Shown here: piece by piece, positions 31,105-51,406 of the stretch | How the letters are laid out: every line of letters begins with the position of its first letter | Position numbering within the stretch: the stretch's first letter is position 1 | Assembly (NCBI RefSeq): GCF_015101885.1 | Contig: NZ_CP062941.1 | Span: 4,402,001 to 4,466,000 of the forward strand | DNA: 64,000 nucleotides | Reading direction: 5' to 3' | From: Massilia litorea | GTDB lineage: Bacteria > Pseudomonadota > Gammaproteobacteria > Burkholderiales > Burkholderiaceae_D | Notes under the pieces: generated by a model | What the model was told of the DNA's origin: nothing | The model's database searches: none | The model's input: only the letters and a program-made list of their open reading frames with translations | Position numbers and translations under genes: made by a program

Positions 31105-32064
31105 ATGGTGCAAAGCGGCGACATCGTGACGCTCAAGGCGGGCCACTACCGGCTGCGCGCGCAGCTGGCGGGTTCGAGTTACGGTACGGTCTGGCGCGCC
31201 GAGCGCGACGGCCACGCGCCCGTCGCCATCAAGCTGGTCAACCGCGAGCAGATGGCCCGCGCCGAACCCGCCCTGCAAGCACGCTGGAGCGAATGCTCCG
31301 CGCGTGAAATCGCCTTCCTGAGCGCCCTCGCACCCTGGGATGCGCGCCACATCGTGCGCCTGCTCGACCACGGCAGCCACGATGGCCTGCCCGCCATGGC
31401 CCTCGAACTGCTCGACGGCGACCTCGCCGCCCACATGTCGGCGCAAGCCGCCGCCGGCCGCTGCATCGGCCTGGCGCAGGCGCTGGCCTGGATCGCCCAG
31501 GTGAATGCGGCGCTCGCGAAAGTGCACCAGCACGGCTGGCGCTACCTCGACCTGAAACCGGCCAACCTGCTGCTCGACGCCGCCACCGGCAGCCTGAAAC
31601 TGGCCGACTTCGGCACCAATCGCAGCCTGGCCGACGCGGGCGCGCACTCCTACGCCGGCACCGCCAGCTGGCAGGCGCCGGAACAGTTCTTCCCTGCCCT
31701 GCCCGATGCGCCGCTGGGCTACCTGACCGACGCCAGGGCCGACTATTTCGCGCTCGGCGCCCTGTTTTATTATCTCGTCAGCGGCGGCGCGACCCTGCGT
31801 TATTCCAGTACCTGCGGCGAGGCCTTCCGGGCGCACGGCCGCGAAGGCGCGCTGAAACTGCGCGCCGCCTCCCTGCCGATCCTGGGCGAGGACGAAGCCG
31901 CGCGCTTTCTCGCCTGCGCAGCGGACGAAGGCGATGCCGGCGCCGCATTGCGCCTGCTGCGGCTGCTGCTCGCGCGCCGCCCGCAGGACCGGCCGCCGCA
32001 CGCGCTGGCGATCAGCCGCCTGGTCGCGGCGGCCCAGGGGACCCGGCTGCGGAGGGCCGCGTGA
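31105..32064 (+). CDS. Soluble Ser/Thr protein kinase (Hanks type), first gene of the kinase-SEDS block
   Basis: The 319-residue protein is essentially one eukaryotic-like kinase domain. Visible residues: the glycine-rich loop LAGSSYGTVW (21-30), Lys43 in VAIKLV, the catalytic loop YLDLKPANLLLD with Asp149, Lys151 and Asn154 (Tyr replaces the usual His of HRD), DFG at 168-170 and APEQ at 191-194. All catalytic residues are there, so it should be active. There is no membrane helix or sensor domain, unlike PknB. Its stop overlaps the start of the SEDS gene (TGATG). A PP2C phosphatase and FHA proteins downstream are its likely antagonist and readers (inference). Confidence 0.92.
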   Translation: MVQSGDIVTLKAGHYRLRAQLAGSSYGTVWRAERDGHAPVAIKLVNREQMARAEPALQARWSECSAREIAFLSALAPWDARHIVRLLDHGSHDGLPAMALELLDGDLAAHMSAQAAAGRCIGLAQALAWIAQVNAALAKVHQHGWRYLDLKPANLLLDAATGSLKLADFGTNRSLADAGAHSYAGTASWQAPEQFFPALPDAPLGYLTDARADYFALGALFYYLVSGGATLRYSSTCGEAFRAHGREGALKLRAASLPILGEDEAARFLACAADEGDAGAALRLLRLLLARRPQDRPPHALAISRLVAAAQGTRLRRAA

Positions 32065-34427
32065 TGCGCGCGCACGGCCTGCGCACACTGGCCGCGGCCG
32101 CGCTCGCGCTGCTGTGCACCCTGCAGGCGGTGGCCCTGCTGCGCACGCCTCCGGCCTGGCTGCCCGCATCGATCGAGGTCGCCCTGGCACCCGATGCCGC
32201 CACTGTGCTCGGACGCGCCGAGCTGGCCGCGCCGCAGGCGGCGGCTGCCCACCTGCGCCTGCGCCGCGATGCCCAGGGCGCCTGGTTTGCCGCCAGCGCC
32301 GGCGGCATGCAGGGCCTGCGCTTCGAGCGCGGCACGCTGCGGCTGCGCAGCGGGACCCGTGTCGTCCAGGCCGGCCAGGAATTCCAGCTGGGCGCGACGC
32401 ATTACCGGATCGACGCGGCGGAGCGGCACATGGTCGCCTTCAGCGATGGCCTGCACGCCTGGTCCTACGATGGCGCCAGGCTGCGGCGCGATGGCGCGCT
32501 GCTGGCCGCGTGCCCCGGTGCAGGCCCTGGCGCACGCCTGCTCGGCCTGTGGAACCGCTGGGCGCCAACCCCGCTGACCATACAACGTCCCTTGCGCTTC
32601 GGCGGCAACCTGTCCTGCGGCACCGGGGTCGGCAACGCGGACGCGCCGGCCGGCAGCGCGCAGCTCGTCTTCGAGGACGGCGTCCCAGTCCTGGCAGCGG
32701 CCACCGGCGTCGAGCGCGTGCCGCTGCTGGTCGACGAGCACGGCCTGGGGCTGGACCCAGCGGCGGACCTGGCGCTGGCGGAACAGCCCCTGGCCGGCGT
32801 CACCGCGCTGACGGTCGGGCGCACGCGCATGCTCCTCCAAGTCGAACAGGGGCTGCTGCGCCTGCAGCCAGGCGGCCGGGTCGCGCTCTTTCCGGAGGCG
32901 CGCACCGAACTGCCGCCAAACCTGCGCTGGCACTGGGAGCGGCGCGATGCCTGGGCCTGGCCGCAGGCCGCAAGCCCGTGGGCCGCCTTCTGCGGCATCG
33001 CGGGTCTCGTGGCCGCGTTGTTCGTTGCCCGCACCGGCCATCGCAAGAACCCGTTCGAAGCCGCCCGCCTGGGCGCCGCCGTCGCCCTCGCCCTGGCCGG
33101 CCTCGGCCTGCTGCTGGCCCAGCGTGCGGGTAGCGCGCCGGGCGTGGCGGTGTCGCTGCTGCTGACCTGGGCGGCCCTGTGGCATGCCTTCGGCGCACGC
33201 GGCGCCGGCGCCGTGCTGCGGATCGGCGTGCTGCTGCTCGCCAGCGGCCTGCTGCTGCAGCTGGAACTGGGCAGCGGCGCGCCCGATACCTCCTGGCTGC
33301 GCCACTTTCAGAAGACGGCCGCCGCCGCCACGCTCGGCCTGGGCCTGCTGGGCTGCGTCGGCCTGTTCGCCGGCGCCAGTTTGCCGCGCCAGGCCGGTGT
33401 CGAGTCGCTCCTGCTGCTGCTCGCCGGCGCCGCGCTCGCGGCCCTGCTGCTGCAGGTCGGCTGGGGCAACGAGACCGGCGTGTTCGACCTGCAGCCCGTG
33501 GAATTCGCGAAACTGGCCTTGACGGTGCTGACGGCGCACTGCGTCGCCCTCGGCCTGGGCACGGGCACGATCGATGCCCAGCGCAAGGGGGGCGCCATCC
33601 TGCTGCGCTGGCTGCGCCTGGCCGCGCCGGCCCTGCTGTTCGTGCTGCTGCTGGCGGTCGCCCTGGTCCAGGTGGACGACTACTCTCCCCTGATCCTGCT
33701 GCTGGTCTGGGGCGCGGCGATGCTGCTGGCCTGGTCCTGCGCGGCGCGCCAACCCGGTCCCGCCCTGGCCGTGGCGGCACTGGCCGGCGCCTGCCTGGTC
33801 GGTCTCGTCGTCCTGCGCGGCGCGGCCCCGGGCGAGGTTGCGCAGTGGAGCTTTTATGGCGAGCGCTTCGGCGTCTGGCTCGATCCGCAGGCGCATCCGC
33901 ACACCGGCCAGCAACTGCTGCTGGGCGCGCAGGCGATCGCGGACGGCGGCTGGCTCGGGGCCGACGGGCGCTTCGGCCTGGCGGCGCTCGGCCAGGGCGC
34001 GCTCGAGGCGCTGGCGATCCCCGCGGTACAGGACGATTTCGCACCTTCCTTCCTGCTGCAGCGCCACGGCCTGGCGGCGGCGCTGGCGCTGTGGGCGCTG
34101 CAGGCGCTGTTCCTGTGCGCGCTGCTGGGAGCGGCATGGCAGGCGTGGCGGCTTGGGGCCACGGCGCGCGACTACCGGCAGGCCTGGCTGGGACGCTTTC
34201 GCTGCTTCGTGCTGTGCGGCGGCGCGGCCTTCGTGTTCGGCCACTTCCTGCTGTCCTGGGGCACCAACCTCGCCTTCTTCCCGATCATGGGCCAGCCGAT
34301 GAGTTTCCTGTCCGCCGGCGGCTCGCACCTGCTGTTTTTCATCTTCCCCCTGCTAGCCCTGGGCAGCACAGCCCACACAATCGAGGAGAACCCGCCATGC
34401 CGGTCTACGTCCAACACGAAACCCTGA
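32064..34427 (+). CDS. SEDS-family (FtsW/RodA-like) glycan polymerase with large N-terminal extension
   Basis: The 787-residue protein is twice the size of FtsW or RodA. One helix (about 7-25) is followed by about 280 soluble residues of no recognised fold, then about ten membrane helices. The membrane part carries SEDS motifs: QPVEFAKLAL (about 476), GGWLG (about 627), IPAVQDDF (about 655; equivalent of PEAHTDF, keeping the Asp proposed as catalytic) and GQPMSFLSAGGS (about 742). SEDS proteins polymerise lipid II into glycan together with a class B PBP; the matching PBP is probably the one at 48236-51406. ATG 32064 was chosen; GTG at 32061 is also possible. It overlaps the kinase gene upstream and the FHA-like gene downstream. 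Confidence 0.88.
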   Translation: MRAHGLRTLAAAALALLCTLQAVALLRTPPAWLPASIEVALAPDAATVLGRAELAAPQAAAAHLRLRRDAQGAWFAASAGGMQGLRFERGTLRLRSGTRVVQAGQEFQLGATHYRIDAAERHMVAFSDGLHAWSYDGARLRRDGALLAACPGAGPGARLLGLWNRWAPTPLTIQRPLRFGGNLSCGTGVGNADAPAGSAQLVFEDGVPVLAAATGVERVPLLVDEHGLGLDPAADLALAEQPLAGVTALTVGRTRMLLQVEQGLLRLQPGGRVALFPEARTELPPNLRWHWERRDAWAWPQAASPWAAFCGIAGLVAALFVARTGHRKNPFEAARLGAAVALALAGLGLLLAQRAGSAPGVAVSLLLTWAALWHAFGARGAGAVLRIGVLLLASGLLLQLELGSGAPDTSWLRHFQKTAAAATLGLGLLGCVGLFAGASLPRQAGVESLLLLLAGAALAALLLQVGWGNETGVFDLQPVEFAKLALTVLTAHCVALGLGTGTIDAQRKGGAILLRWLRLAAPALLFVLLLAVALVQVDDYSPLILLLVWGAAMLLAWSCAARQPGPALAVAALAGACLVGLVVLRGAAPGEVAQWSFYGERFGVWLDPQAHPHTGQQLLLGAQAIADGGWLGADGRFGLAALGQGALEALAIPAVQDDFAPSFLLQRHGLAAALALWALQALFLCALLGAAWQAWRLGATARDYRQAWLGRFRCFVLCGGAAFVFGHFLLSWGTNLAFFPIMGQPMSFLSAGGSHLLFFIFPLLALGSTAHTIEENPPCRSTSNTKP

Positions 34428-35965
34428 ACCGCGTCAGCGACGTGTTCAATGCCGAAGCGCTGTGGCAGGCGCCCGGCCTGGCCCTGCTGAACCGCCGCCC
34501 CTTCCTGCGCGACCTGCTGGAACGGGCCCCGCGCGAACAGCGCGGCCGCGCCGCCACCCGCTGCTTTTCCCACGTCACCCTGGTGCTGCCGCAGGACGAG
34601 GTCGACGACGACCGCCACCTGACCCGCGGCGCCCGCGTGCGCGACCTGGCGCAGACCCTGCAGGCCCTGCACCAGAAGGATTTCGGCGACCTGCTGGGAC
34701 AGGACGAGGTGCGCTACCACGTACTCGGTTCCGACGACCTGGAGCCGGGCCAGGTCGAAGTCAAGTTCGGGCACGCCGTCTACTTGCCGGCGCCGGGCGA
34801 AGAAGTGCTGTACACGGCCAGCGTCTCGCGCGACAGCGCCATCTGGCAGCCGGTCTGCCCGGTCTATCCGAACCAGCGCCTGACCGTGCTCGGCGCCGAC
34901 AGCGCCCGCGCCACCCACGCCGTGCCGGGCTGGCCGTTCGCCGCGGACGGCAACATCCTCCTCATCAACGACGGCCCCGATGCGCCGCCCGAAGTGCAGG
35001 TCCGCCCAAAAGAAGCATTCGACTGCGCTTTCGACGCCGCCGGCGGCTACTACACGATCCGCGCCCGCGGCACCGAGACCGCGGGCGCGCCGGCCCGGCT
35101 GCTGCTGAAGCTGACGCCTGCGCGGCCGGTGCCGCTCGCCGTATCCTTACAGCCATCGCCGTCCGTGGGCGCGCCGCCGGCGCCGCGCACGCCCGCCGTC
35201 TGGAAGACGCGCGCCCCGACCCTGGACGATGCCGAGCTGACCGCGGTGCCGGTCCTGCACCGGGCTGCGGCCGCCGCCGCGCCGGTCCCGGTCGGCCAGG
35301 ACGCCACCTACGCGCCGGTGATGCGCCAGCGCGTCAGCCTGGCCGCGCTGGCCCTGCCGCGCCTGTCGCGCTACCGCGACACGGGCGCCGCCGCCATCGA
35401 ATTCGGCATCACGCGTGACCTCGCCGTCGGTCCCGTCGCCGCCGACGGCCTGCTCGGCTTCGCCCTCGATGCCAGCGACGCGGTCCACGCGATCACGGCC
35501 GACGGCCGCCAGCGCATCCCGGTGCCGAGCCGCTTCGCGCCGGTGGACGGGGTCGACGTGCGCGTGCTCGCCCCAGGCCCGCAGATGGCGGAGCGCTACA
35601 GCGCCATCGTCTGCCTGCCGCAGGCCCCGGGATTGCCGGTGCTCGGCGGTACGCGTCACGTCTTCGGACGGGCCGTGCCGATGCTGGCCGGCCTGCGCGT
35701 GCTCGACGCCGGCTGCCTGCGCAGCGCCGACGGCGTGGACGCGGGCGGCGCCGACCGCCTCGGCCTGTCGCGCAATGCCTTCGGCTTCGAGGCCAGCCCC
35801 GAGGGCTACCGCGTGACGCGCGAGTCGGCGACCCAGGCCCTGTACCACCTGGACGAGCGTTTCGGCTTCGTGGCGACGATCGAGCCGGCGCCGGGCGAAG
35901 CCTATGTGCTGCCGCTCGGGCACCACATCGTGGCCGGCCATTACGTGCTGCGCGTCGAGGCCTGA
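34397..35965 (+). CDS. Uncharacterised protein with degenerate FHA-like C-terminal domain
   Basis: The 522-residue protein starts inside the end of the SEDS gene (31-base overlap; ribosome site GAGGAGAACCCGCC-ATG). Residues 1-250 form a probable beta-rich domain of unknown type (DEVRYHVLGSDDLEPGQVEVKFGHAVYLP). A Pro/Ala-rich linker follows, and then a region from about 415 to 500 resembles a forkhead-associated domain: HVFGRAVPML aligns with the FGR start and GLSRNAFGFE with the SxxH region, though the His is replaced by Ala. It may be a phosphothreonine-binding or scaffold protein for the adjacent kinase (inference). No homologue was recognised by name. Confidence 0.7.
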   Translation: MPVYVQHETLNRVSDVFNAEALWQAPGLALLNRRPFLRDLLERAPREQRGRAATRCFSHVTLVLPQDEVDDDRHLTRGARVRDLAQTLQALHQKDFGDLLGQDEVRYHVLGSDDLEPGQVEVKFGHAVYLPAPGEEVLYTASVSRDSAIWQPVCPVYPNQRLTVLGADSARATHAVPGWPFAADGNILLINDGPDAPPEVQVRPKEAFDCAFDAAGGYYTIRARGTETAGAPARLLLKLTPARPVPLAVSLQPSPSVGAPPAPRTPAVWKTRAPTLDDAELTAVPVLHRAAAAAAPVPVGQDATYAPVMRQRVSLAALALPRLSRYRDTGAAAIEFGITRDLAVGPVAADGLLGFALDASDAVHAITADGRQRIPVPSRFAPVDGVDVRVLAPGPQMAERYSAIVCLPQAPGLPVLGGTRHVFGRAVPMLAGLRVLDAGCLRSADGVDAGGADRLGLSRNAFGFEASPEGYRVTRESATQALYHLDERFGFVATIEPAPGEAYVLPLGHHIVAGHYVLRVEA

Positions 35966-35967
35966 AC

Positions 35968-36444
35968 ATGTCCGCGCCCTCGCATCCGCCCCTGCTTCTG
36001 CTGGCTTGCGGCGGCGCCGCCCTGCTGCTGACGCTGGTGCTGGCGGCACGCTGCACGCCGCGCGCCTGGTGGCGCCGGCCGAACGCGCGCGCCTTGGCGG
36101 TACTGGTGCTGGGTACGGGCCTGATCGGCGGCGCGCTCTGGGCCTGGCTGGCACCGCGCGCGCCTGTGTCTGTGTCTGCGCCTGCGCCCGTGCAGGCCGC
36201 GCTTGCCGTGCCGGCCGCCGGGCACAGCTATCGGGTGGCCGACGCGCTCAACCTGCGCGCGGCGCGCGGGACTGGCGCCAGGCGCGTGCTCGTGCTGGCG
36301 GCCGGCTCGACGGTGCAGGCAACGGGACAGCGCGACGGCGACTGGTGGCAGGTCACGGCGAACGCGGACGGCCAGCGTTACGAAGGCTGGGCCAGCAGCC
36401 TGTGGCTGCGCCGCGCCGACGAGCGGCGGCCTAGCGGGGAATGA
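35968..36444 (+). CDS. Membrane-anchored bacterial SH3 (SH3b) domain protein
   Basis: The 158-residue protein has two hydrophobic helices (about 8-26 and 42-62), a Pro/Ala linker and an SH3_3 domain (about 87-150): YRVADALNLRAARGTGARRVLVLAAGSTVQATGQRDGDWWQV ... GWASSLWL. SH3b domains bind cell-wall peptides, which fits a periplasmic exposed domain next to a peptidoglycan polymerase. It starts two bases after the FHA-like gene stop, so they are cotranslated. Its end overlaps the convergent GNAT gene by 14 bases. Confidence 0.85.
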   Translation: MSAPSHPPLLLLACGGAALLLTLVLAARCTPRAWWRRPNARALAVLVLGTGLIGGALWAWLAPRAPVSVSAPAPVQAALAVPAAGHSYRVADALNLRAARGTGARRVLVLAAGSTVQATGQRDGDWWQVTANADGQRYEGWASSLWLRRADERRPSGE

Positions 36445-36901
36445 AGCGCATCGGGTTGAAGTACAGGCCCTTGACGCACTGGGTCGGGGCCGTCCGTTCG
36501 AAGCCGAAGGCTGCATAGACCGGCACCGCGTAGTTCGACGCGTTGACCGTGAAGACGCCGCTGCCGCCGCGTGCCAGGCTGGCGGCGCGCGCGACCTCCC
36601 ATAGCCGGCGCGCCAGTCCCTGGCGATGCCAGCGCTTGTCGATAAACAGGTGGAAGACGTGGCTGTTGTCGCGGATCGCGATGAAGCCGGCGATGTCGTC
36701 GCCGTCGACGGCGACATGGTAGACGTGGCCGGCGGCGATATAGCCGCGCATGCCCGCTTCGTCGTTCTCGCGCAGGAAGGTGCATGCGCCTTCCTTGCTC
36801 GATTCGTGGACAATGAATTCGCTGGCGCTTGCGCGCAGCAGGCGTGCACAGGCGGGCAGGTCGGCGATGTCGAGCGGGCGAATCAAGGTGGGGCAGGTCA
36901 C
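36431..36901 (-). CDS. GNAT-family N-acetyltransferase (GTG start)
   Basis: The 156-residue protein shows the GNAT fold: LIRPLDIADLPACARLL, then VAVDGDDIAGFIAIRDNSHVFHLFIDKRWHRQGLARRLWEVAR, where R/Q-x-x-G-x-A is the acetyl-CoA binding motif A, and NASNYAVPVYAAFGFERTAP near the end. The substrate is unknown. It lies on the minus strand between plus-strand genes of the kinase-SEDS block, overlapping the SH3 gene end, and its start is 67 bases from the PP2C start on the opposite strand. The start codon is GTG at 36901 without a clear ribosome site. Confidence 0.85.
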   Translation of the reverse strand: MTCPTLIRPLDIADLPACARLLRASASEFIVHESSKEGACTFLRENDEAGMRGYIAAGHVYHVAVDGDDIAGFIAIRDNSHVFHLFIDKRWHRQGLARRLWEVARAASLARGGSGVFTVNASNYAVPVYAAFGFERTAPTQCVKGLYFNPMRFIPR

Positions 36902-36968
36902 GATTGCGTGCGGGCTGTGCTAAAACGATAACTTACCATACGATATGCCACCGATGGGGACCGAAACA

Positions 36969-37916
36969 ATGCTTGAAAGCGTGAACGGCGGGCGCTGGCT
37001 GGACCTGGCCGCGGGCAGCCGGATCGGCGCCGGCCCGGTGCAAAGGCAGGAAAACCAGGACAACTACCTGGTCATCAACGGTGCGGGCCGCGCCGACTTC
37101 CTGCGCAGCGGCCAGGGCGCATCGGCGCAAGTCGGGGGCTGGCCGCCGGGCCAGCTGCGCCTGGCCGTGATGGACGGCATGGGGGGCCACGGCCACGGAC
37201 GCGAGGCGGCCGAACTGGTCGCGGCCGGCCTGCTCGCGATTCCGGCCTGTAGCGAGCTCGCCGCCCTCTCGCATCATCTCGAGCAGCTGCACTTCGCACT
37301 GCAGGGCCGCTTCGACGCCCTGCACGAAGCCGGCCCCCGTCCCGGCACCACGCTGACCATGCTCGAGATCCCGCCGTCCGGCAGCCCCCTGCTCTGGCAT
37401 GCGGGCGACTCGCGCCTCTACGAAATCACGCAGGCGGCGGCCGCGCCGCTCACCGTGGACCACGTGCCGGCCACCGTGCTGGCAATGGCGGGAATGCTCG
37501 ACGAAGCGGCCTGGTGGCGCCACGTGCACGGCAGCCATGCGCCCCAGATTGCCCAGGCCTTCATCCTCGGGAATACCCTGGTCGATCCCGCGCGCCTGGA
37601 CGATGGCCTGGTCGGACTGGACGCCGCCACGCTGCCGCCCTGGCTGCGCGCCCTGCCCGACCGCCGCGCGATCGAACTGCGGCCCGACGCGACTTACCTG
37701 CTCGCCACCGACGGCTTCTGGTCCTGCCGCGATCCGGCGGAATTCGTCGCGCGCTGGCCACGGCTGTTCGCGCGCGGCGATGCGCAGGCCGGGCTGGAGG
37801 CCCTGTTCGCCGAGATGGAAGAACGCCCGCCGGTGGGCCTGCAGCCGGACAACCTCACCGCCATCGTGCTGCGCCTGCGCCAGGGCGGGCGCGACGAGAC
37901 CGCGCTGCCGGCTTAG
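36969..37916 (+). CDS. PP2C-family protein phosphatase
   Basis: The 315-residue protein has the metal-binding and core motifs of PPM/PP2C phosphatases: QENQDNYLV (about 27-35), AVMDGMGGHGHG (about 66-77), GTTLTML, LLWHAGDSRLYEI, YLLATDGFW and QPDNLTAIVLRL. It should remove phosphate from Ser/Thr residues phosphorylated by the kinases at 31105 or 39745. There is no membrane helix. The start at 36969 follows GGGGA eight bases upstream; an ATG at 36945 would add eight residues but lacks a ribosome site. Divergent start of the GNAT gene lies just upstream, so an independent promoter is likely in the short gap. Confidence 0.92.
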   Translation: MLESVNGGRWLDLAAGSRIGAGPVQRQENQDNYLVINGAGRADFLRSGQGASAQVGGWPPGQLRLAVMDGMGGHGHGREAAELVAAGLLAIPACSELAALSHHLEQLHFALQGRFDALHEAGPRPGTTLTMLEIPPSGSPLLWHAGDSRLYEITQAAAAPLTVDHVPATVLAMAGMLDEAAWWRHVHGSHAPQIAQAFILGNTLVDPARLDDGLVGLDAATLPPWLRALPDRRAIELRPDATYLLATDGFWSCRDPAEFVARWPRLFARGDAQAGLEALFAEMEERPPVGLQPDNLTAIVLRLRQGGRDETALPA

Positions 37917-38037
37917 GTAAAGCTCGGCAGTTACTTTACAATATGAAATAATGCGTTAAATCAACTTCAAGCGGCCGCTAGCGCGCGCCACGGCTGGGCG
38001 AATCCGCGTAAGCTTCCCCGGTCCACAAGGCCCTTCC

Positions 38038-39504
38038 ATGAACCGTTGCAGCCATCCCGATCATCCGCATTGCACCGTCTGGGTGATGCCAGGAGAGAGC
38101 GCCTGCGCGCACGGCCATCCTCAGCTGCCTGCGCAAGCCGACGCTCCCGAGGCGGACGCAGCGCTTGCCGCCCCGGCTGCCGTGCGTCCGCACCTGCACG
38201 CGAGCGGTTTCGATCCGCGCGCCGCCGGCGGCCGCCAGGTGCTGAAACTCGAGCTGCGCGGCATGCCGCCCGACTGCGCGCCCCAGGTCACCCTGCTGGC
38301 CAGTTCGCGCCTGCAGCTGGAAAACGGCGAGCGCCACACTTTCAATCGCACCGTGCGCGGCGAATGGCTGCCGGTCTTCCTCGAATTTTCCTCGCGCGGG
38401 CTGGAACACGGCCAGTACCGCATCGAAGTCGAGCTGCACAGCCGCGCGCAGGCCCCGGGCGGCAGTGCGCGCACCTGGATTGCGACCCTGCTGATCCTCG
38501 CCCCGCGCGCCGACGCCAGCCTGAGCGAAATCCACCAGACCTTCCTTGCAACCCACAAGAACGTGCGCGTGCAGGCGGACGACGCCTCGATCGCGCGCGT
38601 CAAGGCGCGCACCGGCGGCGGCCGGCTCGACATCGACCTGCGCGCGACGAACGCCGGCATCGCCCACCTCGACCTCGATGCCACCGCCGCCGGCAAGATC
38701 GACCTGGGCTTTTCCAGCATCGCCTGGGACGAAGACCTGCTCGAGATCGACGTGCCGGCCCAGGCCGCGGCCCACCCCTGCCCGGCGGCCACGGCCTGCC
38801 TGGTGCTGGGAGAAACGCCCGATGTGCAGCGCCCGCGCTACCTGCGCCTGTTCGCGCTCGACGAATGCGTGCTGGGACGCGATGAATCGGGCTTGAACGG
38901 CGCCGGTGCGATCGATGCCGACATCCGCCTGATGCACCATGGCGAAGCCGGCCTCATGCCCGAGGGCCTGACGCGGCGCATCTCGGGCCGCCACGCGCTG
39001 CTCCGGCGCGGACGCGAAGGTTTCGAGATCGAGGACGTGTCGCGCTATGGCCTGCTGGTCGACGGCGTCTGGCCGGGCAAGCATGCGCCGGTGGCCCTGC
39101 GCCCCGGCATGCGCATCGAATTCACCGCCAGCATCCCGGGGGTGGCCGTGCTCGAAGTCACGGCGGTGCTGCCGAACGCCATCATCCTGCAGCGGCTCGA
39201 CGCCGGCATGGATCTGGAAGCCTTTTACCTGATGGACCCGGAGCGCAAGCCGGACATCGCGCCGCGCCTCGGCGCGCTCGGGCTGCCGCTGCTGTTTCAC
39301 CGCGACGGCGGCTTCTGGCACCTCGATCCGGCCAGCGGCATCGAGACGCCGCTCACGCCGACGCTGGCAACCGGGAACCTGAGCGCCTGGCCGGCCGGGG
39401 CGCGCTTTGCCGCCCGGCCGTATCCGGAACACCGGAACGGGCCGTCCACGCTGGTGCTGCGCCAGCAGGAACGCAGCGCGCACGGGCGCCGCGCCAGCGC
39501 CTGA
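38038..39504 (+). CDS. FHA-domain protein with N-terminal Cys/His metal-binding cluster
   Basis: The 488-residue protein opens with CSHPDHPHC and CAHGHP (Cys4, Cys12, Cys22 and neighbouring His), probably a small zinc knuckle. Residues about 50-250 look beta-rich with no named domain. An FHA domain spans about 268-365: CVLGRDESGL (Arg281), RRISGRHALLRRG (SGRH 316-319) and SRYGLLVDG, that is the GR, SxxH and NG-like positions, so phosphothreonine binding is plausible. It would be a reader of the neighbouring kinases. It ends the plus-strand arm, 33 bases from the end of the minus-strand arm. Confidence 0.88.
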   Translation: MNRCSHPDHPHCTVWVMPGESACAHGHPQLPAQADAPEADAALAAPAAVRPHLHASGFDPRAAGGRQVLKLELRGMPPDCAPQVTLLASSRLQLENGERHTFNRTVRGEWLPVFLEFSSRGLEHGQYRIEVELHSRAQAPGGSARTWIATLLILAPRADASLSEIHQTFLATHKNVRVQADDASIARVKARTGGGRLDIDLRATNAGIAHLDLDATAAGKIDLGFSSIAWDEDLLEIDVPAQAAAHPCPAATACLVLGETPDVQRPRYLRLFALDECVLGRDESGLNGAGAIDADIRLMHHGEAGLMPEGLTRRISGRHALLRRGREGFEIEDVSRYGLLVDGVWPGKHAPVALRPGMRIEFTASIPGVAVLEVTAVLPNAIILQRLDAGMDLEAFYLMDPERKPDIAPRLGALGLPLLFHRDGGFWHLDPASGIETPLTPTLATGNLSAWPAGARFAARPYPEHRNGPSTLVLRQQERSAHGRRASA

Positions 39505-39537
39505 GGCGCCTGCGCTTCTGCCGCCGCGTCTACACTG

Positions 39538-39648
39538 CTAGTGCCCTTGCGTCAGCATCACGACGAAGATCAGGCCGCAGCCGGCAAGCAGCGCCGCCTG
39601 TAGCGCGAAGACAATCGCGGGGATGCGCAGCTCTTCGGGGATTTTCAT
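39538..39648 (-). CDS. 36-residue single-helix membrane peptide
   Basis: The short frame MKIPEELRIPAIVFALQAALLAGCGLI... has a polar start and a single hydrophobic helix (about residues 9-32). A near-ideal ribosome site (CAGGAGGGCGCC-ATG) supports translation. It is the last gene on the minus-strand arm of the kinase block, 96 bases after the kinase-SUMF1 gene. It may be a small regulator or anchor of a membrane complex (inference). A longer upstream frame exists but lacks a ribosome site. Confidence 0.65.
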   Translation of the reverse strand: MKIPEELRIPAIVFALQAALLAGCGLIFVVMLTQGH

Positions 39649-39744
39649 GGCGCCCTCCTGGGTGCGATAAAAAGACCTTTTACACCCGATTAGCCTACTC
39701 TTGCCAGCTCCCGACCCGCGCACGCTAGCTGCAGGAAACAGCCG

Positions 39745-41970: not shown

Positions 41971-41980
41971 CGGGCCTGGG

Positions 41981-44152: not shown

Positions 44153-44205
44153 GATCCGACTCCATCTTCAGGTGATTTTGATTCCGAGACCGCCTGTCCG
44201 GCGCT

Positions 44206-45222
44206 CTAAATGATCCCGATCCGCTCGACGCAGACCAGGCTCGCGCCTTTCGCGCGCAGCGCGTCGGCCAGGCCGGGGGGCAGCTGCGCCTCCCAGGCGC
44301 GCGGCAGCAGGACGCGGTCGCCCGGCTGGGCTTCGCGCTCGATCAGCGCGCACTTGAGTCCCAGTCCTTCGACCGCCTCCACCAGTCCCGCATGCCAGGC
44401 CTGCGATGCGCCGCTGGCGACGATGCGCCCGCGCGGCACGAACTCGCGCCCGCGCGCCAGGCGGTCGGCGAGCACCAGGGCCAGCTCGTACGAGGCGCCG
44501 TGCAGGCCGTCCTGGCCGAAGCGCACCGTGGTGCGCCAGCGTGCATGCTCCTGGCCGTCGAAGTGGCGCGCGCCGCTCAAGGCCTGGCGCACGGCCTGCT
44601 GGCGCACCCCATCCAGGCCGGGCGCGGCGATCGCATCGTCCTCGATCACCTCGCCCTCGGCCAGCGGGTAGACGCTGACCTCGACCCAGCACAGGCTGTC
44701 GTTGATCCCGCCGCTGTGCAGCGGGAACCAGGCGCACGCGCTCGACACCGAGGCCGCCGCATCCGGCTGACCGGACAGGGCGCCGAGATGCTGCAGGTGG
44801 CCGGGCCCGCCGCGCAACGCCCCGGCAGGGAGATCGGGGACATCGTGCCCGTCGATGCGGCCGCGCTGCCAGTCTTCCGACCAGCCGTTCGCGACCATGC
44901 CCGGGGCCGCCGCCACCAGGCCGCGCACTGCGCGGTCGGCCAGCACCACGGCCAGTTCCCAGTCGCGTTCCTGGGAACCGGGCGCGCGGTCCATGCTGAT
45001 GACGACCTGGTCGCGGCTGTCGTAGCGCGCTTCGGTATGGCGCGCCAGGCGCGCGACCAGCGCCATGCGCGCCGCCAGCTGCGGTGCGCCGGGTGCGCTG
45101 CACTTGACCTCGGCGCGGCCGGCGCGCGGCCGCCGTGTGGCGGTGACGGTGACGAAGCTGCCGTCCCGCAGGCGGCTGCGCAGGTCGACGGTGTCGGGAC
45201 GTCTCGAGGCCGGGCCGTTCAT
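44206..45222 (-). CDS. Protein with two Lon-protease/ComM-like (ribosomal S5 domain 2-like) domains
   Basis: The 338-residue protein looks like two tandem copies of the fold found in the Lon proteolytic domain and ComM. Each has a strand pair, a helix and the segment RDWELAVVLADRAVRG (first copy) or GASYELALVLADRLARG (second copy), followed in the second by GRIVASGASQAWHAGLVEAVEGLGLKC, parallel to the Lon GxVxLxGxxLPIGGLKEKxxAA segment. The second copy has a Ser at the Lon nucleophile position, but the catalytic Lys is not apparent, so activity is doubtful. The assignment is by eye. Its ATG overlaps the upstream stop (ATGA), with GAGGAGG before it. Confidence 0.6.
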   Translation of the reverse strand: MNGPASRRPDTVDLRSRLRDGSFVTVTATRRPRAGRAEVKCSAPGAPQLAARMALVARLARHTEARYDSRDQVVISMDRAPGSQERDWELAVVLADRAVRGLVAAAPGMVANGWSEDWQRGRIDGHDVPDLPAGALRGGPGHLQHLGALSGQPDAAASVSSACAWFPLHSGGINDSLCWVEVSVYPLAEGEVIEDDAIAAPGLDGVRQQAVRQALSGARHFDGQEHARWRTTVRFGQDGLHGASYELALVLADRLARGREFVPRGRIVASGASQAWHAGLVEAVEGLGLKCALIEREAQPGDRVLLPRAWEAQLPPGLADALRAKGASLVCVERIGII

Positions 45223-46277
45223 GCGGCCTCCTCGTCGAGCGTCACCCGCTTGCGTTCGGCGAGCGCGCATTCGAGGTTGGCGACGATGCGGTCGGCTTCG
45301 TCGAAGAGCAGGTCCAGGCCTTCGTCGTCGGCCCGCTCGAGCCGTGCCAGCAGGGCCCAGGCTTCATCCAGCGCAGCTGCGGCACGAACGCTGTGGCGGG
45401 CCCGGCGCGCCTGGCTGTCCAGGTCGAGCGGCTGGCCGGGTGCGCCCAGGCCGAGCGCCGGCATGGTCGATGCCGCCAGGCAGACCAGGTCGAGCCGCTG
45501 CAACAGGGCCTGCTGCTGGCGGAACAGGTCCTGCCCCTGCGGCAGCGCGGCCTGGCGCACGCGGCACATGACGCAGGGCAGTTCCAGGAACAGGCGGCGC
45601 AGCGCACGCGCGTCCGCGCCGCTTGCCTCGGCCACTCCGGGCGCCGAGGCCGTAGCATGCCAGGCTGGCGCGGGCGGCACCGTCACTGCGCCGGCGACGG
45701 CACGTCCGGCGAGCTCGCGCGCGTAGTCGCGCGTCCCGGCCAGGTCGACCGGCACGCAATCGTCGACGGTGAGGCCGAAGCGGGTGTAGAGCAGCTGGTT
45801 GAAGCCGGCGCGGAAGGCGTTCCACTCGTCGAGGGTCGTGCAGGGCGGCAGTTCCAGGTTGCCTTGGGCGAGTTCGCGCTGAAGCGCCGCTTCGATGCCC
45901 GCGGCCAGCGCAGCGAGCGCCAGCTCGCCCGCCCCTTCGCTGGCCAGGAACAGGTCGAAGCGCTGCTGGGTCATGCGCGGATCCGGGCTGTCGATCGCGA
46001 AATGCAGGCGCAGCCCGATCTCGGGCGCGGCGGCAAACGGCACCAGGTCGCAGCCGTAGGGACCAGGATGGAAGCACCAGCCGGCTTCTCCTGCGGCCAG
46101 CACCATGCGCCCGCCGGCGCCGATGCGGCGCGTGTGGCCGCTCGAGGAGACCGCGACGCCGACCGCGCCGGGCGGCACGCTGCAGCCGGAAGCAATCGGA
46201 CGCGCGATCGCCTCCACGCCGAGTCCCGCCGCATCGAAGGCCGGCGCGCGCGCCATGCGTTTGAAAATATCGAGCAT
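45219..46277 (-). CDS. SPFH-like protein without coiled coil, function unknown
   Basis: The 352-residue product shares its layout with the SPFH-like part of the protein at 41981-44152: an opening VPPGAVGVAVSSSGHTRRIGAGGRM, then EIGLRLHFAIDSPDPRMTQQRFDLFLASEG and EWNAFRAGFNQLLYTRFGLTVDDCVPVDL, which parallels FDELLQGALRMLLADYGLGVVQVDTL. The second half (about 200-352) is helical, with ELPCVMCRVRQAALPQGQDLF. No membrane helix is visible. The gene starts two bases after the 184-residue protein gene and overlaps the Lon/ComM-like gene as ATGA, so these three are one translational unit. The family resemblance is an inference by reading. Confidence 0.6.
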   Translation of the reverse strand: MLDIFKRMARAPAFDAAGLGVEAIARPIASGCSVPPGAVGVAVSSSGHTRRIGAGGRMVLAAGEAGWCFHPGPYGCDLVPFAAAPEIGLRLHFAIDSPDPRMTQQRFDLFLASEGAGELALAALAAGIEAALQRELAQGNLELPPCTTLDEWNAFRAGFNQLLYTRFGLTVDDCVPVDLAGTRDYARELAGRAVAGAVTVPPAPAWHATASAPGVAEASGADARALRRLFLELPCVMCRVRQAALPQGQDLFRQQQALLQRLDLVCLAASTMPALGLGAPGQPLDLDSQARRARHSVRAAAALDEAWALLARLERADDEGLDLLFDEADRIVANLECALAERKRVTLDEEAA

Positions 46278-46279
46278 CG

Positions 46280-46834
46280 TCAATTTGCCGCCTGTACGCT
46301 GAAGATTGCGCCGTGGCGCTGGAAGTGGGCGGCCGGCTCGTCCGCGCAGGGCCAGGCCGCTTCGAGCTCGCCGTCGCTGTCGAGGCGGCCCGCCAGCAGT
46401 TCGGCCCCGGCGCCGTCGACCACGCGCAGCAATGCAGCCGCGCGCAGCAGGCGGGCCGCAAAGGGCGCCTCCGGCATCAGCTGCAGGATCACGCGGCGTT
46501 CGGCCCCGCTGCCGACGAAATGCAGGCGCCAATGGCCGTCGTCGGTCGCCAGTTCGGACAAGGCCTGGCCGCTGTCGGCCGCGCGCAGCATGCCGACGCT
46601 GCCCTGCCAGGCGTCATGCGCGGCGGCGCGGCGCTCGAGCGCCAGGGTACGCAGGCGGCGCGTGGTCAGCGGCGAGGCCTGCAGCGCGGCGCGTTCGGCC
46701 GGCCGCAAGGGACGGCTGCCGTCGAGCGCGGCGCGCAGCACGGCGTCGGCCAGCATCAGGCGGTCGCCCTCGACTCGCGGCGCCAGCAGCAGGCGCTCGC
46801 GCAGCTTGCCATCGATATCGCTGGTAGTCTTCAT
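46280..46834 (-). CDS. Uncharacterised 184-residue protein of the kinase block
   Basis: The soluble product has a helical, Arg/Leu/Ala-rich first half (KLRERLLLAPRVEGDRLMLADAVLRAAL, LTTRRLRTLALERRAAAHDAW) and a beta-rich second half (WRLHFVGSGAERRVILQL). No domain was recognised. Its ATG overlaps the stop of the preceding gene (ATGA) and has GGGAG upstream; it ends two bases before the SPFH-like gene. Function can only be guessed from context. Confidence 0.7.
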   Translation of the reverse strand: MKTTSDIDGKLRERLLLAPRVEGDRLMLADAVLRAALDGSRPLRPAERAALQASPLTTRRLRTLALERRAAAHDAWQGSVGMLRAADSGQALSELATDDGHWRLHFVGSGAERRVILQLMPEAPFAARLLRAAALLRVVDGAGAELLAGRLDSDGELEAAWPCADEPAAHFQRHGAIFSVQAAN

Positions 46835-48144
46835 TCGTTTCTCCCTTTCGAGGGTGCGGCTGCGCTCAGGCGCGCGATGGCCGCGTCGCGCCGCTTGCGC
46901 AGGGTCGGCAGCGAGACGGCATCGAGCGCCGCCAGCTGGGCCATGGTCGGCAGGCCATTCGTGGCGGGGTCGCGCCATGCGTCCGGATAGCTGTCGTCGT
47001 CCGGCCCGAGCAGCTTCAGATAGACCGCCAGGCGCACCGCCAGCGAGTCGTCCGCCAGCATGCGTGCACTCCAGCTGCCCGGGTCCTGGGCCGCGCCCGC
47101 CACGATTACAAAGTGGGGGGGCAGTGAAACCGACTGCGCACGCTGGGCGTGGAGCGGCTCGCCGTCGGCCGCCCCGGCCGGTTCAGCTGGTTCGGCTGCC
47201 CGCGCCGCGTCGGGTTCGTCCTCCAGCGCGTCCAGGATCAGGTCCGGCCCCGGCGTGCCGCATGCGCCAGACCCGGCCTCCGATTCGTCCAGCACCCGCC
47301 AGTAATCCTCGAGCCAGGCGGCCGAGGTGTCGGCGTCCTGCAGCCAGTCGCGGTCGCGGTTGGCGGACAGGGTTTCGTATTCGCCGATCTCGGCCAGCAT
47401 CTCGCCGATCTTGACTGCATTGTCCTTCAGGCTGTCGAAGCGCTTCGAACGCGTGTGCAGCGGACCGGGCGAGCCCGTGAACCGCTCCAGCGTCGCGCTC
47501 CAGCGCAGGATCCATTCGGGACGGCAGCCGGCGATCGAGGCCAGCTGGCGCACTTCGATCGGCAGCGCCGTCTCGAGCGGCCGCCCGAGGATGGCGCCGA
47601 CCTGGACCCGGTGCTCGCGCCAGTTGCCGAACAGGCGGGCGATCTCGCCATAGGCCGTGTCGAGCATGCGGTAGGCGTAGATGCGGTTCGGGCTGCAGGG
47701 ACGGCCGCAGGCGGCCTGGTAATTGTCGGCGTCGACCTTGTCGCGCAGAAGCGCGAACATGTCGTTGACCTTCTTGCGCAGCAGCGCTTCGCCGCCGGGC
47801 TGGCGCCAGAAGCCGGGCACGCGTGCGTGTTCGCCGGCCAGGGCCGTTCTGAACGCCGCCCAGTCGGACGGGCGCGCCGCCAGTTCATAGGCCAGCAGCA
47901 GGGCCAGCTCGGCGACGCTGTCGCCATAGCTGTTGCCGGCCGCCTGGGCACGCACGCTGCGGCCCGCAGCGTGCAGGCATTCGGCCAGCAGGTCGACGTA
48001 CAGGGCCAGCGCCTCGCCTGCGGGCGCGGGCGCCAGCAGTTCGCCCGGATCGCAGCGCTTGAAAACCTCGAGCGAGCACTGGCCAAGCAATTTGCGCACC
48101 TGTTCCCACCCCGGCTCCTGATACCGGGTTCCCGGCAAACGCAT
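46831..48144 (-). CDS. Uncharacterised 437-residue helical protein of the kinase block
   Basis: The product begins MRLPGTRYQEPGWEQVRKLL and is mainly helical up to about residue 290 (EVFKRCDPGELLAPAPAG, YAYRMLDTAYGEIARLFGNWREHRVQVG), with an acidic, Ala/Glu/Pro-rich linker and a C-terminal segment holding LPPHFVIVAGAAQDPGSWSARMLADDSLAVRLAVYLKLLGPDDD. No family was recognised. The start at 48144 has an excellent ribosome site (AGAGGAAGGT-ATG); the frame continues upstream only as shadow of the PBP gene. A 91-base gap separates it from the PBP stop and may contain a promoter (TTGTTTTTGTG region). Confidence 0.75.
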   Translation of the reverse strand: MRLPGTRYQEPGWEQVRKLLGQCSLEVFKRCDPGELLAPAPAGEALALYVDLLAECLHAAGRSVRAQAAGNSYGDSVAELALLLAYELAARPSDWAAFRTALAGEHARVPGFWRQPGGEALLRKKVNDMFALLRDKVDADNYQAACGRPCSPNRIYAYRMLDTAYGEIARLFGNWREHRVQVGAILGRPLETALPIEVRQLASIAGCRPEWILRWSATLERFTGSPGPLHTRSKRFDSLKDNAVKIGEMLAEIGEYETLSANRDRDWLQDADTSAAWLEDYWRVLDESEAGSGACGTPGPDLILDALEDEPDAARAAEPAEPAGAADGEPLHAQRAQSVSLPPHFVIVAGAAQDPGSWSARMLADDSLAVRLAVYLKLLGPDDDSYPDAWRDPATNGLPTMAQLAALDAVSLPTLRKRRDAAIARLSAAAPSKGRNE

Positions 48145-48235
48145 ACCTTCCTCTTGTGTTGATGGCGTATCCACCCGATAAGGGATTTTGTAAATCATGC
48201 CACAGAAACACAAAAACAAGGCGCGCTGGAGAGGC

Positions 48236-51200
48236 TCAGTTGCCTTTCTGTTCGCCCTTTTGGGCGAGCGCGCGTAGCAGCGCCGCCACGACTGGCGCGG
48301 CATGCTCGCCACCGGTCGCCTCCGAACGGCTGACAAAGGCGGCAAACGCCAGGCGCCGGGTCTCGCCAGGGATGCTGCCCGGCTCCAGCCAGCCCGTGAA
48401 CCAGACGGTGGCCTGGCCCTCGCTCCCGACGGGCGCGGTGCCGGTCTTGCCGTACAGGCCAGGACGCAGGCGGTCGAAGGCGGCGCCGCGGAAGGCGCTC
48501 GCCGCGGTGCCGCCTGCGACGACGCCATGCAGGCCGGCGCGGATGCGGTCCAGGCGAACGCCGAGCGGCGCGCCTTGCTGGGCCCCGGCCCGGCGCCCGT
48601 CGAGCGCCAGCAGCAGCCGGGGCGCGATCGCCCTGCCCTCGCCCACCGCGCCGGCGGCGAGCGCCATGTGCAGCGGGGTGGCCTGCATGCGCAGGCCGAT
48701 CGCCATCTGGCGCAACTCGTGGCGCGAGCCGATCGGATCGAAGCCGGCGACGCTGGCCTGCAGCGCATCCCAGCTGCGCCAGTCGAAATCGGCGGGCAGC
48801 AGGCCGCCGTCGAGCGGCAGCGTGCGTTCGAAGCCGAGCCGGTGCGCCATGTCGAGGATGGGCCGTACCCCGCCGAGGGCCGTATCGTCGAGCGCGCGCA
48901 GGCTGGGCGCCCCGCCCTGCGCCTTGCCGAACAGGCTGCCGTCGCTCAGCTCCGCGCTCCAGGCGAACCAGGTGTTCAGGCTGTAGGTCAGCGCCTGGGC
49001 CAGCCCGAGCTTGCCGTCCTGGGCGCGGCGGTCGAGGGTCCCGTCGCGAAAGTTCGTGATGCGGGCCCCGGCGCCCTGGTAAGGATAGGTCGCGCCGTCG
49101 GTGCGGAAGGGGAAGCCGCGCGCCGCCGCCAGGGCGTTGATGTCGGCCAGCGGCATTCCGCCCAGCAGGGCGTCGAGGCGCGGATCGCGCTGGGCGGCCA
49201 GCTCGAGGCCGAGGGCGCTGACGATCTTGAAGGTCGAGCCCGGACTGCGCTCGGCGCCGCCGTCGTGCTGGAAAGCCGCCTGGCGCAAGGGACTGCGCGC
49301 CGGGTCGACGCGGTCGAAGTCGCGCAGTTCGCTCCAGTTGCCGTCCGCGAGCGGCGCGGCGCTGCTGCCGGCGGCGGCCAGGATGTCGCCGCTGCCGGTA
49401 TCGATCAGCACCAGGCCGGCCTGGCGCGCGGCCGGCGGCGTCAGGCCGCCGCTACAGCGCGCGCCATCCCACTGGCCGCGGCGCATGCCGACGCAGTCGA
49501 GCACCGCCTGTCCAAGCCGCTGGAGAGGCAGGTCGAGGGTGAGCCTGGCTTCATGGGGGCGGCCGTCGGGCGCGGGCAGGCGCGCCAGCACGCCGGCCAC
49601 GCTGTTCGCCTGGCCGGCATGCAGGCCGAGCAGCGTTGCCAGGCCCGCCTCGCGTGCGCCGGCCGTCGCGCTGCCTGCCTGCCACAACGGCGCGCCGCTG
49701 CGATCGGCCAACAGTACCGGCACCGGGACCACGGTGGCGGACCGCCCCGGCTGGGCAATCGCCTGCCAGGCCAGCCGGCCTTGTTTCACCTGCAGATGCC
49801 GGTACGGTGCATCGCCGCCCCCGCTCATGGCCGCGAGATCCAGCGGCAGCGCTTCGATCACGACCTGGCGTGCGCCAGGATGCGGCGCCAGCACCAGCTC
49901 GCGCACGTCGTCCGGCTCGGCACAGGCGCGCCCGGCGCAGGCCGCACGCCCGCCGGCGAGCGCGGCGCCGGCGATGGCGCGCACCCGTCCCGCCAGCATC
50001 AGTTCGATGCGCTCGTCGCCGCGCGCCGGCCGCGGCAAGCTCAAGCTCAGGCGCACGGCGGTCGCATGGCCCGCGCTGGCCGGCCAGTCGGCCAGCCGCT
50101 GCCAGGGCGCCCAGCCCTGCGGCAGGCTGGCGAACAGCCGGGCCAGGCCCAGCGGCATTGCCTCGCTGCTGCTCGCGGCACTCGCTCCGGCCTGCGCCTG
50201 CCAGGCTCCGGCGGCACCCGGCCGCACGCGCCAGGCCAGCAGGCGCCGTTCGCCATTGAAGACCCGGATCTGTTCGCGCACATAGGCGCCGTCGGCGCGC
50301 GCGTGCAGGCGCTCGAGCAGGCGCCGCCCGGCGTCGTCGAGCACGACGCCGTCCCAGGCATGCAGGTCGGCCGTGCGCTGGCCCTTGTCGGCCGCACGCC
50401 ATTGCACCAGGTCGCGCGGCGCGGTCTCGATCATGCCGGACGGGGAGAGGCGCACCAGGCCGCGCGCCAGCAGGCTGTCGAACAGGGCGCCGTCTTCCAG
50501 TGCCGGCGCTGCGTCGAAGGGCACGCGATAGTCGCCGGGCGCGAGGCGGCTCGCCAGTGCCCGGCCGTGTTCGGGAAAGGCAGCGACGATGGCGCCGGGC
50601 GCGGTGCCTGGCAGGGCCTCGTACGAAGTCAGCACCAGCTCGCCGCCCTGCGCGCAGGCGGCGCCCGGACGGCGGTCGACGCGCAGCGCCCCTTTGTCGC
50701 CCCACACCAGCCAGCCCTCGCGTCCCAGCAGCGCCCTGCCCTGCACGCCGCGCGCGATGCTGCCGGCGCTGGCGTCGCCGATCCAGCGCGCGTCACCATG
50801 CCAGGCCAGCTGCAGGGACGAGCCCAGCGAGCCCGTGATGTCGACCTGGGGCATGCTCGCCCCCGCCAGCACGACATTGCGCAGGGTGACGGGACTGGCC
50901 GCCGCCGCATTGCCTGCCGCCCAGCGCGCTACATCGTGGAAGCGGTAGCCGATGCGTAAAGGCGCCAGCCGTCCGCCCGATCCTGCGAGCGCCTGGCTGC
51001 ACAGGTCGATCACGACCGGGCGCCGGGCACGCATGCCGGAGACGACCAGCAAAGCGCCGCCCGGCTGGGCGCCCAGGCTCACGCCCGGTTCGCGCGGCAC
51101 GCTGAAGGAGACGCCGGGGAGCGCGGCCTGGAAGGCCGGCAGCGTACGCACCGGTCCGCCGCCGGTGCTCATCCGGCCGGCCGCGGCGGCGCCCAGGGAA

Positions 51201-51406
51201 CGCGCGTGGACTGCGATCAGCACGGCGCCGCCGGCCACGAAGCCGAGCGCCAGCAGTGCCAGCCAGACCCGCGGCCCCGCCTGCCAGCGCGTGCCGCGTA
51301 CGGCTGGCAGCACCCGCCGGCCGCCCGCACGCAGGTTGCGCGCCCGGCGCCAGGCGCGGCCGTTGGCGGCCAGCCCGGCGCACACCGTGGCGAACATCTC
51401 CCCCAT
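48236..51406 (-). CDS. Large penicillin-binding transpeptidase, monofunctional
   Basis: The 1056-residue protein has a basic N-terminal cytoplasmic stretch, one membrane helix (about 46-67), about 550 periplasmic residues of unrecognised, beta-rich sequence, and a transpeptidase domain (about 620-1045). The three penicillin-binding motifs are intact: SxxK as SPGSTFKIV with Ser724 and Lys727, SxN as Ser809-Leu-Asn, and KTGTA at 987-991. No GT51 glycosyltransferase motif was seen, so it behaves like a class B PBP but is much larger than PBP2 or PBP3 (about 600 residues). It likely pairs with the SEDS protein at 32064-34427. The ATG has AAGGAGGAATCG upstream. It is the first gene of the minus-strand arm. 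Confidence 0.9.
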   Translation of the reverse strand: MGEMFATVCAGLAANGRAWRRARNLRAGGRRVLPAVRGTRWQAGPRVWLALLALGFVAGGAVLIAVHARSLGAAAAGRMSTGGGPVRTLPAFQAALPGVSFSVPREPGVSLGAQPGGALLVVSGMRARRPVVIDLCSQALAGSGGRLAPLRIGYRFHDVARWAAGNAAAASPVTLRNVVLAGASMPQVDITGSLGSSLQLAWHGDARWIGDASAGSIARGVQGRALLGREGWLVWGDKGALRVDRRPGAACAQGGELVLTSYEALPGTAPGAIVAAFPEHGRALASRLAPGDYRVPFDAAPALEDGALFDSLLARGLVRLSPSGMIETAPRDLVQWRAADKGQRTADLHAWDGVVLDDAGRRLLERLHARADGAYVREQIRVFNGERRLLAWRVRPGAAGAWQAQAGASAASSSEAMPLGLARLFASLPQGWAPWQRLADWPASAGHATAVRLSLSLPRPARGDERIELMLAGRVRAIAGAALAGGRAACAGRACAEPDDVRELVLAPHPGARQVVIEALPLDLAAMSGGGDAPYRHLQVKQGRLAWQAIAQPGRSATVVPVPVLLADRSGAPLWQAGSATAGAREAGLATLLGLHAGQANSVAGVLARLPAPDGRPHEARLTLDLPLQRLGQAVLDCVGMRRGQWDGARCSGGLTPPAARQAGLVLIDTGSGDILAAAGSSAAPLADGNWSELRDFDRVDPARSPLRQAAFQHDGGAERSPGSTFKIVSALGLELAAQRDPRLDALLGGMPLADINALAAARGFPFRTDGATYPYQGAGARITNFRDGTLDRRAQDGKLGLAQALTYSLNTWFAWSAELSDGSLFGKAQGGAPSLRALDDTALGGVRPILDMAHRLGFERTLPLDGGLLPADFDWRSWDALQASVAGFDPIGSRHELRQMAIGLRMQATPLHMALAAGAVGEGRAIAPRLLLALDGRRAGAQQGAPLGVRLDRIRAGLHGVVAGGTAASAFRGAAFDRLRPGLYGKTGTAPVGSEGQATVWFTGWLEPGSIPGETRRLAFAAFVSRSEATGGEHAAPVVAALLRALAQKGEQKGN

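Follow-up and report, generated by a model that had tools for sequence, protein, structure and literature searches.

Can a Gram-negative bacterium have placed an additional envelope synthase under Ser/Thr phosphorylation, and do the genes concerned form a single machine? The question is raised by a 20-kb block of Massilia litorea DNA, located at 31105-51406 of the 64,000-nucleotide stretch that was analyzed (“the window,” to whose numbering all coordinates refer). Genes for two Ser/Thr kinases, a PP2C phosphatase, an FHA protein, a SEDS-family protein and a class B-like penicillin-binding protein (PBP) are found together there, and likewise in the relatives read. The original prediction for this DNA described the block as a dedicated, phospho-regulated envelope-building machine; the grouping of these genes stands, but “dedicated” is too strong a word, since the core exists without SEDS and PBP. 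On balance, we lean toward a third, accessory synthase of the SEDS-class B PBP type, governed by a Ser/Thr phosphorylation circuit. The system is modular, with a SEDS-PBP pair added to a phospho-signalling core, rather than one indivisible machine. Labels beginning with G denote the family genomes compared.

Organization and Conservation of the Block

Codon-use gene calling, together with Pfam and NCBIfam scans, gives 14 genes; they form two convergent sets, as had been proposed. The plus-strand set runs STKa (a kinase), SEDS, UnkA, SH3b, PP2C and FHA, interrupted between SH3b and PP2C by a GNAT gene on the minus strand; the SH3b gene was called by its Pfam match, having been missed by the codon-use script. 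The minus-strand set, read from PBP, comprises PBP, UnkD, UnkC, an unknown protein of 352 residues, UnkB, a zinc-ribbon SPFH protein and STK-SUMF (the second kinase). Gaps within the sets are often short or negative (STKa/SEDS -1, SEDS/UnkA -31, UnkB/352-residue protein -4, UnkC/UnkD -4 nucleotides). The G+C content is 0.70-0.76 across 32-54 kb (2-kb steps), vs. 0.62-0.70 in the rest of the window. Just right of the block, 54338-55186 encodes a protein with a PEP-CTERM sorting motif.

The surroundings of SEDS were read in 20 of the 35 other SEDS-bearing family genomes, and the order STKa-SEDS-UnkA-SH3b-PP2C-FHA / STK-SUMF-SPFH-UnkB-352aa-UnkC-UnkD-PBP recurs in these 20 relatives, in the same orientation; gene-order conservation was one of the checks that the original prediction had set for itself. 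A span of 40 kb contains both halves in 19 of the 20, the right half of G045 being on another contig; in G148 the fetched stretch stops inside the right half, with PBP further on. This order is shared beyond chance, since it is kept although the median pairwise difference of the block proteins is 32-49% of aligned residues. The spacer between the halves varies in length and holds other genes (among them pirin-, OsmC- and MFS-like genes, labelled by eye without family search), among which no constant partner set was found. Other genes also occur in relatives at 36444-36969 and at 39504-39745, and the distance from FHA to STK-SUMF reaches about 17 kb in G148.

When named genomes were scanned with two SEDS peptide patterns, 133 relatives were confirmed, and 80 of these were examined. 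By title they belong to Massilia, Duganella, Rugamonas, Pseudoduganella and Telluria, with a single Janthinobacterium and a single Herbaspirillum, the remainder being unresolved Oxalobacteraceae, Burkholderiaceae or Pseudomonadota. STKa lies upstream of SEDS in 77 of these 80 loci, and the other three begin at a contig end. Outside the family, the PBP and UnkA profiles each matched 2 of 398 phylum genomes and the FHA profile 4 of 300 order genomes, all within the window's own genus; no more than two to five candidates per genome were scored, and the samples included few genomes of the family, so that distant copies could have gone unnoticed. Within the searches made, block matches are confined to the Oxalobacteraceae.

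Co-occurrence of the SEDS-PBP Pair With the Core

Presence was counted over 195 family genomes, one of them that of the window. SEDS (E ≤ 1e-3) and PBP (E ≤ 1e-40) are each found in 36, and these are the identical genomes, some of them fragmentary (G091, G108). UnkA occurs in 38 and FHA in 59, and all 36 SEDS/PBP genomes fall inside both sets; it is because of this inclusion that a phospho-regulated synthase is kept as the best explanation. UnkA without SEDS and PBP is restricted to two genomes, G182 and G001. Independent occurrence of kinases and SEDS/PBP in relatives had been named beforehand as a result that would speak against the prediction: the FHA gene does occur without SEDS and PBP (21 genomes, and G182), accompanied by the kinase in the loci read, and the reverse, SEDS/PBP without FHA or UnkA, was seen in none of the 36.

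Those 21 genomes carry the FHA protein with no UnkA, SEDS or PBP, and the locus was read in 11 of them. G005, G040, G048, G067, G157 and G177 hold FHA, STK-SUMF and SPFH in the layout of the block. In G132, G165, G176 and G187 (L255-L262), FHA, SPFH and kinase all point in one direction, the kinase giving a shorter match (438-480 residues vs. >700 elsewhere); this arrangement is perhaps the ancestral core. G125 presents PXPV, GNAT, PP2C, FHA and a partial STK-SUMF up to the contig end. PP2C is present in 5 of the 11 loci (G005, G040, G048, G125, G157). A further separable piece, the third, is found in G001, where STKa-UnkA-SH3b stand alone (L250:16870-18612, minus strand, and neighbours), away from that genome's own FHA gene.

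A tree built from FHA, SPFH and STK-SUMF over 1920 columns and 32 genomes (the rows of G125 and G001 having been removed in advance) describes the core genes, not the species. In it, the G005/G048/G157 group diverges ahead of every full-block genome, and two separate positions among the full-block genomes are taken by core-only members of the Duganella-containing genus. G182 sits inside a 100%-support clade of otherwise full-block genomes (sister G000, 58% support), so loss is the simplest reading of its missing genes. More broadly, the simplest history is that the core came first, the modules were added once and several losses followed; repeated gain may also have occurred.

The SEDS Protein and Its PBP

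The SEDS gene (32064-34427, plus strand) encodes 787 residues and matches PF01098 at 2.5e-16; this match and the fold place the product in the SEDS family (FtsW/RodA/SpoVE), as proposed originally. It forms a third paralogue in addition to FtsW and RodA, with 17-20% identity to both. Counting PF01098 genes in 97 family genomes gave three SEDS genes in 11 of 13 block genomes (G089 has four; G091, with a fragmented block, two), and among the 84 non-block genomes G064 has three and all others at most two. Curated equivalog scores are not reached (ftsW 47.3 vs. 337.5 needed; rodA 45.5 vs. 336.7), and a sequence search against solved structures returned FtsW at E 0.006. The protein consists of a transmembrane (TM) helix, a putative FHA-like domain (~31-262), three extra TM helices and the SEDS core (~377-776). 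The catalytic Asp, equivalent to FtsW D297 in extracellular loop 4 (ECL4), is D658 and is kept in 120/120 sequences; by alignment, the equivalents of Q147, R246, G371 and G381 are kept with it in the block protein.

The structure models were built on shallow alignments, and the FHA-like domain modelled on the N-terminal part is less certain than the FHA folds of UnkA; the SEDS profile compared with that of the FHA protein gave an hhalign probability of 0.8%. The predicted topology would put this domain on the periplasmic side. Conservation of the SEDS tail is not usable alone as a sign of protein constraint because its frame overlaps the start of UnkA by 31 nucleotides (34397-34427).

The PBP (48236-51406, minus strand; 1056 residues) matches the transpeptidase family PF00905 at 3.4e-11 and consists of one TM helix (47-65), a long periplasmic part without known family and the transpeptidase domain. 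The motifs S724/K727, S809/N811 and K987-T988-G989 are invariant in 17/17 aligned sequences; SxxK, SxN and KTG after a single TM helix thus agree with the class B assignment first suggested. The curated PBP2 (MrdA) score is not reached (37.1 vs. 455), and the best sequence matches among solved structures are 4mnr (1.2e-9) and then PBP2 7kis (2.4e-5). Six cysteines are invariant (136, 251, 490, 495, 638, 651), and a conserved family-less stretch precedes the transpeptidase domain; in G106 (L070/L071), the PBP match consists of two adjoining pieces in different frames. SEDS is tied to PBP because of their strict co-occurrence and joint absence, and this extra pair, far in sequence from FtsW and RodA, is distinct from the housekeeping systems, as had been claimed.

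Kinases, Phosphatase and FHA Proteins

The two kinases bear out the initial annotation. STKa (31105-32064, plus strand; 319 residues; Pkinase 4.2e-26) is soluble and keeps its DFG (21/21), YxDLKxxN-type loop (21/21), VAIK-like Lys (20/21) and APE (20/21) motifs. STK-SUMF (39745-41970, minus strand), also soluble, combines a SHOCT-like start, the kinase domain (Pkinase 1.2e-33), a linker and a SUMF1-type domain (FGE-sulfatase 1.1e-59). Its HRD-type loop is present in 18/21 extracted sequences, the misses being G018, G106 and G045, whose sequence in this count is another kinase match, the true STK-SUMF lying on another contig. Neither kinase matches PASTA in the family scans or has a predicted TM helix. 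The PP2C phosphatase (36969-37916, plus strand) matches the Stp1 family at 1.4e-9, under that family's curated cut-off, and shows ENQD and DGMGG-type motifs in 20/20.

Two FHA or FHA-like proteins had been announced. One, the FHA protein (38038-39504, plus strand), matches PF00498 at 2.1e-6, with G280, R281, S316, R318 and H319 invariant in 21/21. The other, UnkA (34397-35965, plus strand; 522 residues, soluble), had no Pfam match in 21 homologues, and is assigned by predicted fold only, with an FHA fold at the C terminus and an FHA-like part in the middle. Its G424, R425, S458 and R459, invariant in 21 sequences, match the GR and S-R of FHA domains and are putative phosphothreonine contacts. 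The hhalign probability between the UnkA and FHA protein profiles is 0.2%.

Accessory and Unknown Proteins

The SH3b protein (35968-36444, plus strand; PF08239 5.6e-9), recognized correctly from the outset, has two TM helices (9-27, 43-61), and the arginine-rich loop between them suggests that its SH3b domain is probably periplasmic. The GNAT acetyltransferase (36431-36901, minus strand; PF13673 4.2e-30), overlooked originally, is an interloper, without match in 5/20 relatives (G113, G089, G166, G106, G188). The zinc-ribbon SPFH/Band-7 protein (41981-44152, minus strand; Zn_Ribbon_1 4.6e-7) owes its label to homologues, 7/16 of which match Band_7 at E ≤ 0.1 (best 3.5e-8); taken alone, the protein encoded in the window gives no Band_7 match. 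UnkB (44206-45222, minus strand; 338 residues) shares 58-66% identity with 19 homologues, and the 352-residue protein (45219-46277, minus strand) 50-60% with 17. UnkC (46280-46834, minus strand; 184 residues, no Pfam match) is found in the stretches of 18/20 relatives; the exceptions are G045, with its right half on another contig, and G148, where the stretch stops short of UnkC. UnkD (46831-48144, minus strand; 437 residues) shows 57-68% identity to 18 homologues and no convincing Pfam match.

Most of the original inventory (kinases, PP2C, FHA, SEDS, SH3b, PBP and the first SPFH protein) is thus retained, and two labels find no support. “Lon/ComM-like” for UnkB is unsupported, with no such family and no convincing Pfam match in 20 homologues, and no convincing Protein Data Bank (PDB) profile match. 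A second “SPFH-like” identity, for the 352-residue protein, found no SPFH family in 18 homologues and an hhalign probability of 0.5% to the first. PDB profile searches with the UnkA, SPFH, UnkD, 352-residue and FHA proteins likewise gave nothing convincing.

Comparison With Known Systems

The closest parallel is the actinobacterial pknA-pknB-pstP-rodA-pbpA-fhaA/fhaB locus, in which kinases accompany RodA, PbpA and two FHA proteins (PMC3989709), and the phosphatase PstP (PMC6554272). Kinase, PP2C, FHA, SEDS and class B PBP genes are together in both cases. Unlike that locus, the block has kinases without PASTA match or TM helix, adds SPFH, SUMF1-type, SH3b and four unknown proteins, consists of two convergent sets in a Gram-negative, and has a third SEDS paralogue and a core separable from SEDS/PBP. 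Kinship through FhaA_N was considered and rejected: no PF12401 match was found at the UnkA gene at E ≤ 10, nor in 21 homologues at E ≤ 0.1, and, unlike FhaA (Rv0020c), UnkA has an extra middle FHA-like part. The N-domain structure of FhaA is absent from the fold lists of UnkA, an absence that carries no weight either way. Since PASTA and FhaA_N gave no match and SEDS and PBP score far under the FtsW/RodA/PBP2 curated values, the likeness is one of parts list and plausible logic rather than of demonstrated kinship, and the parallel drawn initially is sound as an analogy.

The block shares with FtsW-FtsI and RodA-PBP2 the SEDS fold, the catalytic Asp and the class B transpeptidase motifs; it differs in the low SEDS identity, the putative N-terminal FHA-like domain, four extra TM helices, altered ECL2/ECL3 residues and the length of its PBP. 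The threonine-phosphorylation pathway PpkA-PppA-Fha of the type VI secretion system (T6SS) also joins kinase, PP2C and FHA protein, as the block does; unlike it, the block has SEDS/PBP and SPFH, and no T6SS family was found among the window genes scanned. Among the papers listed by searches of open-access literature, none is on this block.

A Proposed Phospho-Regulated Synthase and Its Alternatives

In the mechanism that we propose, the two soluble kinases would phosphorylate threonines on partner proteins and PP2C would reverse this. The FHA protein and UnkA would recognize the phosphothreonines and recruit or switch the synthase, UnkA being the likely direct partner of SEDS because its gene directly follows and overlaps that of SEDS. 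The zinc-ribbon SPFH protein may scaffold the complex at the membrane; SEDS would polymerize periplasmic glycan and PBP cross-link it, with wall-side input from the SH3b domain and, on SEDS itself, from the putative extracytoplasmic FHA-like domain. The kinase-FHA-SPFH part would be an older platform, existing without synthase, to which the SEDS-PBP module was added.

Several observations weigh against this interpretation. The phosphorylation targets in the block remain candidates. PDN, expected in PP2C, is found in 8/20 only; PP2C itself is missing from the fetched stretch of G106, and PP2C or FHA was not seen in 8 of the 80 named loci, three of these 8 being short contigs. Distance correlations (mirror-tree) are high for most gene pairs, not specific to SEDS-PBP, and were not used as evidence. 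G182, of the window's own genus, keeps 12 block genes in place without SEDS and PBP, which are missing between STKa and UnkA and after UnkD, at sites about 15 kb apart; neither has a match elsewhere in that genome at the thresholds given. Divergence ratios of G182 to relatives are 0.92-1.12 in 10/11 proteins measured (STK-SUMF 1.40), beside 0.90-1.19 for the flanking genes (the HD flanking gene gave no value); therefore, either the signalling part is useful without the synthase or the loss is recent.

These mostly unaccelerated G182 proteins, the 21 FHA genomes without UnkA, SEDS or PBP, the kinase within the fetched stretch of all 11 loci read there and the isolated STKa-UnkA-SH3b of G001 favor a serious but clearly less probable alternative, loosely coupled neighbours: the phospho-core (FHA, STK-SUMF, SPFH, often PP2C) would serve another envelope or stress function, with SEDS-PBP and its neighbours as client or passenger outside phospho-control. 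The unbroken presence of FHA and UnkA in SEDS/PBP genomes and the overlapping STKa, SEDS and UnkA frames argue against it. The chemistry may also differ, as cavity residues of SEDS are altered (P196 to D, G199 to S, Y242 to F; K133 and R137 align to L and W), and lipid II polymerase activity is therefore not assured. That the protein builds or ligates a non-peptidoglycan glycan from a different lipid-linked substrate is nevertheless unlikely, given the five kept equivalents (D297, Q147, R246, G371 and G381) and a SEDS found only with a PBP of intact motif columns. Rather doubtful, though less so, is a new SEDS class in which a periplasmic FHA-fold sensor gates the enzyme, the cytoplasmic kinase/phosphatase/FHA circuit controls it from inside and the product is distinct from that of FtsW/RodA. 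An anti-phage defence system is very improbable and was rejected: both kinases match PADLOC kinase models (PD-T4-6, mad6), but these are general kinase-domain matches, the other 7 of the 9 proteins scanned (of 14) give one weak PP2C match, and much the same neighbours stand at the locus in most relatives read.

Coupling of Ser/Thr kinases to a SEDS-class B PBP pair is already known from actinobacteria. If the phospho-regulated synthase is the right interpretation, a Gram-negative group would have built an equivalent arrangement around an additional pair that is highly divergent. A periplasmic position of the FHA-like domain, if borne out, would be an unusual use of the FHA fold. Relatives with the core only, with all but SEDS/PBP, or with the full set provide a natural series for studying the connection of phospho-signalling to wall synthesis and the role of each part.
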